Below the pieces are notes generated by a model. That model was not told the origin of the DNA, did not search any database, and saw only the letters and a list, made by a program, of their open reading frames with translations. DNA of 35,628 bases, taken from contig NZ_RAZF01000029.1 of NCBI RefSeq assembly GCF_003612555.1, positions 1 to 35,628 of the forward strand. The letters are read 5' to 3'. The DNA comes from Acutalibacter sp. 1XD8-33 (GTDB lineage: Bacteria; Bacillota; Clostridia; Oscillospirales; Acutalibacteraceae). Of this stretch, positions 31,068-35,628 are shown in pieces (the first letter of the stretch is position 1; the number at the start of each line of letters is the position of its first letter). Both the position numbers and the translations under genes were made by a program.

Positions 31068-31236
31068 CCGATGCAATAAATGTGCCAAAAACATTTATAA
31101 AACTAAGAGATTTCGTTCAGGTTATAAATCGTATGACTGCGGCTCATTTGTGGTGAATAGGACTTGCGGTTGTAGGAAAGGAACGAAAAATCCGTATCGT
31201 ATTATCGGTAGCCGCTACCGAAAACTTCTGAAATGA
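31048..31236 (+). CDS. Possible small cysteine-rich protein
   Basis: A 62-codon frame has CNKC in its first half and a second cysteine group (C, then CGC) about 30 residues on, with many lysines and arginines. This could form a small zinc site. There is no good ribosome site and the frame overlaps the broken gene, so it could equally be decayed sequence. Confidence 0.25.
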   Translation: MILLHISRCNKCAKNIYKTKRFRSGYKSYDCGSFVVNRTCGCRKGTKNPYRIIGSRYRKLLK

Positions 31237-32165: not shown

Positions 32166-32384
32166 ATGACGAAAAACAACGACAATCAGAACTGCCGGTA
32201 TATGACCCGGCGCATCGGTTCTACCACCTACAAGGTGAAGGTAGTCTTTTCCGACAACGGCGGCGAGACGATGGAAGAAAAAATTTTGCGGATGATCCGC
32301 AATGAGGGGCTGCAAAACGTTGGAGAACGTGGTATGATGGATGCACCACAAATGAGCCGTCAGTCTGAAAGGAGCGCGTCATGA
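32166..32384 (+). CDS. tnpW: Transposon-encoded protein TnpW
   Basis: The protein has 72 residues and belongs to the TnpW family, recognised by YMTRRIGSTTYKVKVVFS followed by ETMEEKILRMIRNE. In Tn4451-type elements TnpW accompanies the recombinase; its function is not established. AGAAAGGA lies six bases before the ATG. Its stop overlaps the recombinase start as ATGA, so the two are translationally coupled. Confidence 0.82.
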   Translation: MTKNNDNQNCRYMTRRIGSTTYKVKVVFSDNGGETMEEKILRMIRNEGLQNVGERGMMDAPQMSRQSERSAS

Positions 32385-34393
32385 GCGCAAGACAGGCTGA
32401 GGAAAAAATAACGGCTTTATACGAGAGGCTCTCTCGTGACGATGAATCCGCTGGGGACAGTAATTCGATCGTGAATCAGAAAAAGTACCTGGAGGGCTAC
32501 GCCGCCCAGCATAGCTTTTCCAATATCGTCCATTACACCGATGACGGATGGTCGGGCGGTAACTTTGACAGGCCGGCTTGGAAACGGCTGGTGGCCGACA
32601 TCGAGGCCGGGAAAGTGGCTCTGGTACTCACCAAGGACATGAGCAGAATCGGGAGAGATTATCTTCAAACCGGATTCTATACGGAAGTCCTCTTTCGCAA
32701 ATTTGGAGTGCGCTTCATCGCCATAGGAAACAGCATTGACAGTGCCGACCCCAATTCCAGTGAGTTTGCGCCTTTTGTCAACATCATGTCGGAGTGGTAT
32801 CTGAGGGACCTGAGCCGCAAGCAGCGCACTGCCATTCGGGTCAAGGGCGAGTCCGGCAAACCCACCACCAACTGTGCTATCTACGGCTATCGGAAAGACC
32901 CCAACGACAAATACCACTGGCTGATTGACGAGGAAGCGGCGGCGGTCGTGCGGCGTATCTTCCAACTTACCATTGAGGGCTGCGGCCCCTATGAGATCGC
33001 CACGATGCTCTGCGAGGCGAAGGTCGAGACGCCTGCCGCATACTTTGCAAGGCAGGGGCGGGGTGTCTGGAAAAGCAGAGAGGACATCCCCCGGCCTTAT
33101 AGCTGGAACGGCTTCGCGGTGGGGCAGATTCTCTCCAAGCCGGAGTATATGGGCCATACGGTCAACTTCCGCTCTCACAAGGAATCCTACAAGGACAAGC
33201 GGGCTGTTGTCCACTCGCCGGAGGACTGGCTGATTTTTGAGAACACCCACGAGGCCATCGTGGATAAGGAGACTTGGGAACTTGCCCAGAAGCTGAGAAA
33301 GACGCCCCGCCGCCACGACACCATTGGCGAGGCCAATCCCCTGACCGGGCTTCTCTACTGCGCCGACTGCGGCGCAAAGCTGTATAACCATCGGTCGAGA
33401 GGAAACGCTGCCAAGCCCTACCCGTCGGACTGGTTCGACTGCTCCACCTACACGCTGGCCCGGCAATCTCACGACAGTGCTTGCAGTAATCACCACATCT
33501 CCACCAAGGCTCTGCGGACACTGATTCTGGAGACCATCCGTTACGCCAGTGCCTACGCCATTTCCAACGAGGCCGAGTTTATCCAGAAGGTACGGGCGGC
33601 GTCCGAAGTCCGGCAGGCGCAGGCGGCAAAGGAACTGAAACGCAAGCTGAACAAGGACAAGCGGCGGTGTGAGGAACTGGACACCATCATCAAGAAGCTG
33701 TACGAATCCTATGCGGTGGGGCGCATCGGCGAGGAACGCTTTGATACTTTGCTTGCCGGGTATGAACAGGAACAGACTGCGCTCCGGCAGTCCGTCATGG
33801 AGGCGGAATCAGCGTTGGACAGCTTCGAGCAGGACACCGCCAATGTGGAACGGTTCCTCGCCCTGGCGAAGAAGTACACGGATTTTTCGGAACTGACCAC
33901 TCCTATGATTAACGAATTTATTGATAAAATCATCGTCCATGCCCCGGAAAAGATTGACGGTGACCGGACGCAGCAAGTGGACATCTATCTGAAATTCATC
34001 GGGCGGTTTGAACTCCCGGCCCCGGAACTGACGCCGGAGGAAGAAAAGCGGCAGGCTTCCCTCCACAGGCATCGGGTCAAAAGCCGCGAACGCTATCAGA
34101 TGATCAAGGCCGGCGAACACGCGGTCGGCCAGCCGTTCAAGCTGACCTGTAAATGCTGCGGAGAAGAATTTGAGTCCACGCGGTCAAACACTCTGTTCTG
34201 CGGTCCGAACTGCCGGGCGAAATTCTACCGGCAGGAAGCAGCGGCGAGTCGAAGCCGTGAATGTGTCTGTGGAAACTGCGGGAAAGCATTTACCACCACC
34301 AGAAACGATGTGAAATACTGCTGTGAGGCTTGTCAGCGGAAAGCGCACAGCAAAATGCGGTATCGGCAGAAGCAGGAAGCAGAAACCGTATAA
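32381..34393 (+). CDS. tnpX: Large serine recombinase (TnpX type)
   Basis: The protein has 670 residues. The N-terminal resolvase domain contains the catalytic serine S18 in YERLSRDDE and the DMSRIGRDYL motif. The recombinase domain (about 170-290) and the zinc ribbon (CADCGAKLYNHRS, near 325) follow, then a coiled coil and a distinctive C-terminus with two further zinc-finger-like CxxCG...C...C repeats after residue 585. It would excise and insert the element at short GA-centred sites by serine recombination, as Tn4451 TnpX does (established for that family). Coupled to tnpW. Slightly shorter than the 707-residue Tn4451 protein. Confidence 0.93.
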   Translation: MSARQAEEKITALYERLSRDDESAGDSNSIVNQKKYLEGYAAQHSFSNIVHYTDDGWSGGNFDRPAWKRLVADIEAGKVALVLTKDMSRIGRDYLQTGFYTEVLFRKFGVRFIAIGNSIDSADPNSSEFAPFVNIMSEWYLRDLSRKQRTAIRVKGESGKPTTNCAIYGYRKDPNDKYHWLIDEEAAAVVRRIFQLTIEGCGPYEIATMLCEAKVETPAAYFARQGRGVWKSREDIPRPYSWNGFAVGQILSKPEYMGHTVNFRSHKESYKDKRAVVHSPEDWLIFENTHEAIVDKETWELAQKLRKTPRRHDTIGEANPLTGLLYCADCGAKLYNHRSRGNAAKPYPSDWFDCSTYTLARQSHDSACSNHHISTKALRTLILETIRYASAYAISNEAEFIQKVRAASEVRQAQAAKELKRKLNKDKRRCEELDTIIKKLYESYAVGRIGEERFDTLLAGYEQEQTALRQSVMEAESALDSFEQDTANVERFLALAKKYTDFSELTTPMINEFIDKIIVHAPEKIDGDRTQQVDIYLKFIGRFELPAPELTPEEEKRQASLHRHRVKSRERYQMIKAGEHAVGQPFKLTCKCCGEEFESTRSNTLFCGPNCRAKFYRQEAAASRSRECVCGNCGKAFTTTRNDVKYCCEACQRKAHSKMRYRQKQEAETV

Positions 34394-34457: not shown

Positions 34458-34832
34458 ATGTGGAACTGCGATTGGGAATATGAAAATCAGGAAACGCTGA
34501 AGCAATGGTATGAAGAAAAGCTCACCGGGATAAGGCCGTACTCGGCTGTTCGGAAAATCATCTGCAAGGCCTGTGGTCGGGTCTTCTACACACAGATCAG
34601 TACCAAGAAATATTGCTATTACCATCTGTGCGGGAACCGGGGCTATCAGAAAGATTTGAAACAGCGGCGGCTGGAAAAACGACAGAACCGGGTCTGCAAA
34701 GGATGCGGAAAAACCTTCACCCCCAAGCGGTCGGATGCGGTCTACTGCTGCAACGCCTGCCGCCAGCGGGCGTATCGCCAGAGCGTTACGGATAAGGTGA
34801 GTGGTCAAATTGACCCCTTACCTCAATCGTAA
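34458..34832 (+). CDS. Zinc-finger protein of the mobile element
   Basis: The protein has 124 residues with two zinc-finger-like units: CKACGRVF...KYCYYHLC and CKGCGKTF...YCCNAC. They closely resemble the two units at the C-terminus of the adjacent recombinase, so it probably arose from, or cooperates with, that domain as a DNA-binding accessory protein. AGAAGGGA lies about eight bases before the ATG. Its last codons and stop lie inside the first unit of a dyad array. Confidence 0.7.
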   Translation: MWNCDWEYENQETLKQWYEEKLTGIRPYSAVRKIICKACGRVFYTQISTKKYCYYHLCGNRGYQKDLKQRRLEKRQNRVCKGCGKTFTPKRSDAVYCCNACRQRAYRQSVTDKVSGQIDPLPQS

Positions 34833-34960
34833 CGAATTTACGCATGGTGTTACGAATAATCAAGTGGTCAAAAGTACCACTTGATTATCTGTAACGGTTA
34901 GAATGAAATGCGTTACGGCTGTTGGTGGTGTCAAAATATGTCACCACCACTAACCGTAAC
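34785..34960. repeat. Array of three long dyads with GTTAC/GTAAC boxes
   Basis: Three units, 34785-34833, 34849-34895 and 34912-34960, each begin with GTTAC and end with GTAAC. Each has an internal stem and a TCAAA-containing centre: AGGTGAG/CTTACCT plus GGTCAA/TTGACC in unit 1, a perfect 12 bp (34856-34867 with 34877-34888) in unit 2, and TGGTGGTG/CACCACCA in unit 3. The period is 63-64 bases. The inner stems differ in sequence but all stay paired. The spacers between units are 15 and 16 bases. Confidence 0.8.
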
Positions 34961-35095
34961 AGAAACACGGAATATGTGCTGGACATGGGAATCTGCCTCC
35001 TGTGTCCGGCCATTTTTTGAAAATCTGATTTGCGGCACGATATCGGAAATCAAAAACGGCTTGATTTTATTTGCGAGGGGAGGAGCCAAAAAGCA

Positions 35096-35428
35096 ATGAG
35101 CAACCGAACCGAAGAACTGAAAATCCGCATCTCGCCGGAGGACAAGGAGCGGATAAAGCTCAAAATGGAGGACGCCGGAATTCTGACTATGAGCGCCTAT
35201 GTCCGCAAGATGGCGCTGGACGGAATTTGTATCCAGCTGGACCTGAAGGATGTGCGCCAGCTTGTTTCCATGCTCCAGCGGTGTACGAATAATCTGAACC
35301 AGTACGCCAAGCGGGCAAACGAAGCCGGGAGCATCTATGCGGCGGACATTGAAGATTTACAGAACCGCCTGGACGAGATTTGGGAATTATCCAGACAGAC
35401 CCTCGCCAGTCTTGCCGCCATTCGATGA
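35096..35428 (+). CDS. mobC: Plasmid mobilization relaxosome protein MobC-like
   Basis: The protein has 110 residues. The N-terminal ribbon-helix-helix-like segment (ELKIRISPEDKERIKLKMEDAGILTMSAYVRKMAL) and the conserved NNLNQYAKRANEAG motif are those of MobC-family accessory proteins, which open oriT and help the relaxase nick. The ATG at 35096 has GGGGAGGAG about 12 bases upstream. A relaxase gene would be expected just beyond the window's right edge. Confidence 0.85.
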   Translation: MSNRTEELKIRISPEDKERIKLKMEDAGILTMSAYVRKMALDGICIQLDLKDVRQLVSMLQRCTNNLNQYAKRANEAGSIYAADIEDLQNRLDEIWELSRQTLASLAAIR

Positions 35429-35469: not shown

Positions 35470-35623
35470 GGGGCGCAAGCCCCGCCTGTCCCTGGGTCGC
35501 AGGGACAACAGCGTTCGGGAACCGAATGCGCAGCCAGCCCCGGCCACGGGGCTGTTCAAGGGGTTTGGGGTGCTACCCCAACAAGCAGAGAAACAGATTT
35601 TCGGCGTAACCGCCGAAAATCTG
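35470..35623. repeat. Six consecutive hairpins after mobC, candidate oriT region
   Basis: In order: GGGGC-GCAA-GCCCC (35470-35483), TGTCCCTG/CAGGGACA (35487-35507), GCGTTCGG/CCGAATGC (35511-35529), CAGCCCCG/CGGGGCTG (35535-35554), TTGGGGT/ACCCCAA (35565-35581), and a perfect 13-bp stem (35594-35606 with 35611-35623) followed by CTTTT. The last stem's top contains GTAAC, the outer box of the dyad array. No protein frame is convincing here. Confidence 0.65.
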
Positions 35624-35628
35624 CTTTT

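Follow-up and report, generated by a model that had tools for sequence, protein, structure and literature searches.

The window analysed here is the whole 35,628-nucleotide stretch of contig NZ_RAZF01000029.1 from Acutalibacter sp. 1XD8-33. Near its right-hand end lies a small gene for a protein with two Cys4 zinc fingers, followed by three tandem hairpin units, the first of which begins inside the gene. This array is real, recurrent and structurally constrained, and it belongs to the small zinc-finger gene. Below, we describe the array, its distribution and the constraints that act on it, and consider what it may do in the mobile elements that carry it. The features at the centre of the analysis are as follows (nt, nucleotides).

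34458..34832, + strand: gene for the two-finger (Cys4) zinc protein of 124 residues, which the hairpins constantly adjoin; an alternative start of the open reading frame (ORF) is 34437
34785..34833, + strand: hairpin unit 1, 49 nt; it begins within the zinc-finger gene and covers its 3′ end
34849..34895, + strand: hairpin unit 2, 47 nt
34912..34960, + strand: hairpin unit 3, 49 nt
34978..35010, + strand: terminator-like hairpin with a T run, directly 3′ of the array (pattern match only)

The hairpin array in the window

Each unit is bounded by two short boxes, GTTAC on the left (34785, 34849 and 34912) and GTAAC on the right (34829, 34891 and 34956), which lie 44, 20, 42, 21 and 44 nt apart, and the centre of every unit contains TCAAA; all of this agrees with an earlier sequence-only reading of the same DNA. 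The right box of unit 1 contains the TAA stop codon of the zinc-finger ORF. The pattern GTTAC-N(35-40)-GTAAC occurs three times in the window, always in the array, as against a mean of 0.01 in 100 shuffled sequences, none of which reached three. Predicted folding of 34775-34975 is strong, with z-scores against 200 shuffles of -8.0 as RNA and of -8.5 and -8.9 for the two strands as DNA. The terminator-like pattern has one match in this region, and 1.0 is expected in shuffles. No linear sigma-70-type promoter was found in the array region by a consensus scan of linear sequence only, on which ground the units were rejected as promoters of that kind.

The same reading had placed the boxes near whole helical turns, a regularity that does not extend to relatives: of 38 distances between units, 34 are 63-68 nt and four are 75 or 95 nt, and in two phage-related loci, L073 and L074, the spacing is irregular.

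Distribution of the hairpins

The hairpins and the zinc-finger gene go together, in both directions. Loci were collected by a scan with the zinc-finger protein, taking one genome per species, which yielded 29. A covariance model was built from 35 distinct 49-nt units of the window and related loci (units of 46, 47, 48 and 51 nt were left out) and, when run on the relatives, it recovered a recurrent hairpin family. Between one and four units lie downstream of the zinc-finger gene in 26 of the 29 loci (E < 1e-3), including L030, where they are found about 1.5 kilobases (kb) further downstream. The three loci without units are L032, which reads N at that place (partial match, E 0.02), and L038 and L039, which match a finger only. 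Among 28 tabulated loci, one unit is present in five, two in ten, three in 11 and four in two.

The reverse direction was followed from the hairpins. In the genome from which the window comes, each of the five hairpins found follows one of the two zinc-finger gene copies, and no dispersed copies were found among the 150 of 438 first-look candidates that were scored. Scans of many genomes used strict filters and scored 15 candidates per genome, so that units can be missed. Across the class (391 genomes, including the window's own), hairpins at E <= 1e-5 occur in two other genomes, and the gene, at E <= 1e-6, in exactly those two. Across the order (394 genomes), hairpins at this threshold occur in five other genomes. 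In four of the five a full-length zinc-finger gene overlaps the hairpin, although G189, which is among the four, coincides with locus L028 and is not independent. The fifth, G229, has a finger only, inside a 684-residue frame that is presumably a recombinase. Ten further genomes gave weaker, mostly stem-only matches (E 1e-4 to 1e-3), among which G293 has a finger only and G341 none. G083 and G116, with weak finger-only matches, are not among the order-scan genomes listed with hairpins.

Several searches of viruses and plasmids add little. The viral loci L040 and L041, reached by a first viral scan with the window's zinc-finger protein, have finger-only matches and no hairpins; one plasmid search gave no match and another a single finger-only match. 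A DNA search of phages with the window gave two matches, to the mobC part only, and a viral pattern scan and a viral mobC scan were uninformative.

The zinc-finger gene and its neighbours

Purifying selection acts on the zinc-finger gene. The ratio of non-synonymous to synonymous differences (pN/pS) in 18 sequences is 0.12 over codons 1-107, with a mean pS of 0.40, and 0.38 over codons 110-122, which lie inside hairpin 1 (mean pS 0.36). The window's protein reaches no Pfam family above cut-off. Its matches elsewhere are weak: to the finger parts of HNH endonucleases and NinG in PHROG, to a single NCBIfam entry below cut-off, and to solved structures. An AlphaFold model has a mean predicted local distance difference test (pLDDT) score of 80 and a predicted template modelling (pTM) score of 0.45, and found no PDB match at E <= 0.001.

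Two other genes flank the zinc-finger gene and its array.

32381..34393, + strand: large serine recombinase, TnpX-like (Resolvase, Recombinase, Zn_ribbon_recom, DUF4368); context, not partner
35096..35428, + strand: mobC / NikA-like gene; context, not partner

The sequence-only reading had taken the position between the zinc-finger gene and mobC as a pointer to function, and had also linked the array to TnpX. Loci of mobC and recombinase relatives were compared with the flank cut to about 1.5 kb. Of 52 mobC matches 30 were examined. Hairpins are present in the window, whereas in the remaining 29 (26-59% identical) both they and the zinc-finger motif are missing. Of the 108 recombinase matches listed, with at most eight per genome scored, 30 were examined; the window again has hairpins, the other 29 (37-66% identical) are without hairpins, and a motif search found no separate zinc-finger gene in them, while the recombinase of L133 carries one finger of this type. 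Since the hairpins track the zinc-finger gene and are absent from mobC and recombinase loci without it, that gene is their partner, and only this half of the positional argument holds. The links to mobC and TnpX find no support, with hairpins in none of either set of 29 relatives lacking the gene and with a next gene that varies from place to place. A MobC-bound part of an origin of transfer (oriT) was rejected on the mobC loci examined, and serine recombinase att sites on the recombinase loci examined and because the apparent element ends lie elsewhere.

As a separate observation, the C-terminal tail of the window's recombinase (34170-34390) has two zinc fingers akin to those of the small protein, with 45% identity over 33 residues, and the L033 recombinase has one such finger.

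Sequence and pairing constraints on the units

Across the 35 units, G1, T2, T3, C5, T9, A41, G45, A47, A48 and C49 never vary, which makes ten invariant columns out of 49. The boxes are nearly invariant, as against the mean synonymous difference of 0.40 in the gene that they adjoin, and the conserved bases sit in the paired foot of the hairpin and not in its loop. Pairing is conserved as well: 83.4% of cells are paired, and 90 cells are changed on both sides compared with 44.7 +/- 4.8 in shuffles (0 of 500 as high), a signal inflated by relatedness, as the set includes paralogues. When the partner columns are slid by 1-3 positions, at most 31 doubly changed cells are found. The number of pairs with a double-sided change, 11, is not above shuffles (11.6). 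The 20 distinct 49-nt first units, which share the same codon position in the zinc-finger gene and hence the same site, give a weaker signal of 18 cells against 9.2 +/- 2.4 (1 of 500 shuffles as high). The earlier claim of a conserved architecture with compensating changes therefore holds in both sets. Its companion, that stems change while pairing is kept, is borne out across relatives, although compensation is not demonstrable from the three paralogous units of the window alone.

One position departs from this pairing in a regular way. The 8/42 pair, the eighth from the foot, is unpaired in 31 of the 35 49-nt units and in all 20 49-nt first units, which argues for selection over copying of one arm from the other. 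Other differences are less orderly. The window and its close relative L011 differ in unit 1 by one uncompensated change. L024 has a hybrid unit, whose left half is that of unit 1 and whose right half is that of unit 2 of L016, and which scores 48.7 bits with the covariance model against 64.1 and 63.6 in L016; L020 has a similar hybrid. Such hybrids are expected from deletion between shared centres, so that slippage fits and no recombinase is needed.

The kind of mismatch that is tolerated bears on the nature of the folded molecule, since RNA folds tolerate G-U more than A-C. In the 35 units, 43 G-T and 51 A-C cells were counted among 770 (45.8 and 59.5 after shuffling), and with shuffles as the sole control this lack of a strand-specific wobble excess speaks against an RNA of one strand. 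Together with the conserved paired foot, and with hairpins that lie upstream of the gene in some loci (type C, below), this balance favours DNA over RNA as the better fit. The sequence-only reading had left both open, in the form of single-stranded DNA or RNA structure; the RNA part is not favoured. On the mismatch balance alone, a cruciform under selection cannot be told from palindromes that arm copying maintains.

Genetic surroundings

The gene and its hairpins are found in several settings. In type A (the window, L011-L027 and L029) the order is recombinase, zinc-finger gene, hairpins and mobC; DNA similarity extends through mobC in all 18 relatives, and the whole recombinase gene is not included in all. 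In L011 similarity stops a short way past mobC; a restriction-like gene on the opposite strand comes next, and no relaxase is seen there. In type B (L003, L031, L033, L035 and L067) the array is followed by a parM-like gene, recognised by a PHROG partition protein match, with another gene in between in L067; L033, L035 and L067 have, further downstream, what we take to be a relaxase. In type D (L071, L080 and L081) a presumed sigma-like gene comes after the array, and in L072 a hairpin precedes genes that we assume to be NikA-like. L028 and L070 are one place reached twice, where a single hairpin is accompanied by a terminator-like sequence and by a mobC-like gene in convergent orientation. 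Terminator-like sequences are recognisable by eye in L003, L028 and L031 and in type A relatives.

Type C comprises L073 (phage record MT836903) and L074 (IMG/VR), whose zinc-finger proteins are about 40% identical to that of the window and whose hairpins flank the gene on both sides. At the chosen score these loci have 14 and 15 stems, where 15 crude shuffles of each gave on average fewer than 0.3 per region; GTAAC follows within 16 nt of 7 of the 14 and 7 of the 15 stems, and GTTAC precedes one in each. A relaxase and a recombinase presumably follow the array in L073. The two hairpins of G229 lie in similar surroundings without a zinc-finger gene. Mobility genes are thus near the array in several families, where the relaxases bear names that we assign by presumption.

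Several further arrangements were noted. In L068, L069, L073, L074 and L075 a conserved leader of about 110 nt precedes different genes, which we take to be a relaxase remnant, a primase-like gene, a zinc-finger gene with hairpins and a ParB-like gene; apart from a tRNA elsewhere in L069, no Rfam match was found in L069, L073, L074 and L075. In L030 (2646-4178) unit 1 is cut short, and another two units follow about 1.5 kb on; the intervening DNA looks by eye like transposase coding sequence, as though the hairpin had been hit by an insertion sequence. L067 (7349-9074) has a gene pair, presumably AbiEi/AbiEii-like, that separates the recombinase from the zinc-finger gene. Where the element apparently ends on the right (window 35567-35628; L011 7164-7270; also L013, L015 and L018) there is another hairpin, whose stem varies yet pairs by eye; in the four relatives it lies, with a second hairpin, between complementary outer words such as CAAGCAG / CTGCTTG, and the window stops inside it. 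These right-end hairpins are a possible oriT or end structure. The eight relatives listed share sequence just left of the start of similarity that the window is without (31072-31132), and the window's copy of the element may have a different or lost left end.

Proposed function and alternatives

We read the array, with a chance slightly under even, as a cognate set of folded DNA sites, hairpin or cruciform, for the zinc-finger protein, which would serve transfer, establishment or upkeep of the element. The mobile-element module would consist of a small two-finger zinc protein and cognate hairpin sites at the end of its gene. The protein would bind the hairpin foot (GTTACGG/CCGTAAC) once the DNA is folded, either as single-stranded DNA in conjugative transfer or rolling-circle copying or else as a cruciform, and the repeated units could allow cooperative binding. 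The bound array would in turn govern a step of transfer, establishment or upkeep, and it may also control the zinc-finger gene itself. In favour of this reading are the joint occurrence of gene and hairpins, the nearly fixed boxes and covarying stems, the usual 8/42 mismatch, the conserved paired foot, the balance of G-T and A-C cells, the mobility genes near the array in several families, and the protein's weak likeness to finger parts of the HNH and NinG DNA endonucleases.

A number of observations weigh against a folded site of this kind. The structure model has low global confidence and no PDB match. The G229 loci L068 and L069 each carry a hairpin of full length but no adjoining zinc-finger gene, the only finger found in that genome being 58 kb from one of them, and conversely the second zinc-finger gene of L067 has no hairpin nearby. 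Some units have lost pairing, such as the L024 hybrid. The 3′ untranslated region (UTR) of the zinc-finger mRNA would contain the hairpins, before the terminator-like hairpin, in the window and in some of its relatives, and in 28 type C hairpins of L073 and L074, G-T cells outnumber A-C cells by 19 to 10 of 357. Finally, unit 2 of the window and the first unit of L067, both of 47 nt, do pair at 8/42 by eye, which takes weight from the folded site and lends it to a duplex one.

In that duplex alternative, which we consider fairly unlikely, the protein binds linear GTTACGG boxes as an operator, and template switching at palindromes copies the arms, so that the fold itself is unselected. Near-equal G-T and A-C counts fit such a two-strand process, the units are recombinogenic, as the L020 and L024 hybrids indicate, and L073 contains box-only, almost stemless mini units (816-832 and 1597-1613, weak model matches). 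Arm copying should, however, erase the 8/42 mismatch, yet this persists throughout the 49-nt first units, if not in some of 47 nt, and the single uncompensated change between the window and L011 in unit 1 also tells against it. The position before a terminator suits a different explanation, that the tandem hairpins act at the RNA level in the 3′ UTR, for feedback by the protein or protection from exonucleases. The window's array lies between stop codon and terminator-like hairpin, with similar terminators by eye in L003, L028 and L031, and both the strong RNA fold and the G-T excess of the type C hairpins agree with it; the lack of such an excess in the 35 units, conservation in the paired foot and not the loop, the hairpins upstream of the gene in L073 and L074, and the lack of an Rfam family at cut-off in the hairpins make it unlikely.

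Two further possibilities concern recombination and transfer. Were the hairpins integron-like, attC-like recombination sites, the genes between arrays would be exchanged as cassettes, in keeping with feet that are fixed, stems that vary and a mismatch that gives polarity, and with the different genes that follow one conserved leader in L069, L073, L074 and L075. The feet CCGTAAC / GTTACGG do not fit the attC core RYYYAAC/GTTRRRY, however, the hairpins lie away from the apparent element ends, and the window's genome has neither an integron integrase above cut-off (28 matches, 0 over the curated cut-off) nor dispersed copies among the candidates scored; such sites are very improbable. We attach just as little probability to a part of oriT bound by MobC or a relaxase. 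The array does lie upstream of mobC in the window, with relaxase or mobilisation genes, some of them presumptively named, near it in several families, but the other mobC loci examined lack it, and elsewhere the next gene is sigma-like or, in L070, a convergent mobC-like gene.

The proposal of folded sites for the zinc-finger protein can be carried further, to a new class of module in which the protein reads an expandable array, of 1 to about 15 units, of fixed-foot hairpins with self-complementary stems and a polarity given by the usual mismatch, on the single-stranded transfer form, and so controls establishment in the recipient. We put this extension forward tentatively, as possible rather than probable. 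An unnamed zinc-finger gene family of mobile elements in gut Firmicutes is now tied to a specific, searchable structured site, and recognition of folded DNA by small zinc-finger proteins can be tested on it directly. If such recognition is real, it would add a control module of protein and hairpin array to the mobilizable elements that move genes among gut bacteria.

Comparison with known systems

Rfam offers no counterpart among described RNA families. In its release 15 only tRNAs reached the gathering cut-off, and permissive searches gave hairpin matches far below it; the SNORA3 match (26.5 bits, cut-off 51, E 0.0099) is taken as chance similarity to tandem hairpins. A described RNA family was therefore rejected for the hairpins. 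The attC sites of integrons are hairpins with fixed feet and variable stems that take their polarity from unpaired bases, all features that the array shares; they differ in core sequence, and the recombinase here is of the serine type. With no integron integrase above the curated cut-off in its own genome, this identity was rejected. REP/BIME palindromes are short tandem hairpins with a conserved foot and many dispersed copies, unlike the five copies, after two zinc-finger genes, found here among the candidates scored, and dispersed REP-like repeats were rejected because no dispersed copies were found in that set. A ParMRC-type centromere would lie upstream of parM; the array is followed by a parM-like gene in type B, but by mobC in the window and in all 18 of its type A relatives.

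Systems that act in single-stranded DNA are also comparable in part. The Frpo / ssi single-stranded promoters, as described in passages of PMC11541004, are likewise folded single-stranded DNA in transferred elements, but they carry -35/-10 elements, of which the linear consensus scan found none in the array region. The authors of the STAXI motif consider single-stranded DNA in the part of their account used here (PMC2864571), which is a point of likeness, whereas STAXI motifs are pseudoknots with frequent UUCG loops and the hairpins here reach no Rfam family at cut-off. In plasmid R388, according to passages of PMC3098194, StbA was able to bind the stbDRs in vitro and had effects on stability as well as on conjugation; the stbDRs are two sets of five 9-bp (base pair) direct repeats around the stb promoter. 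As in that system, the gene of a small protein lies beside an array of repeated sites, with transfer genes close by. The adjacency of array and zinc-finger gene is seen directly, and binding by the gene's product would complete the parallel with StbA, a DNA-binding protein (PMC3098194). The array differs in its hairpins with covarying stems, which the stbDRs passages of that paper do not mention. No description of an element of this form was found in the open-licence literature, in line with the sequence-only reading. Fixed ends and stems that vary but still pair suggest a structured binding array of a kind not described before, and not a transfer origin of the ordinary sort.
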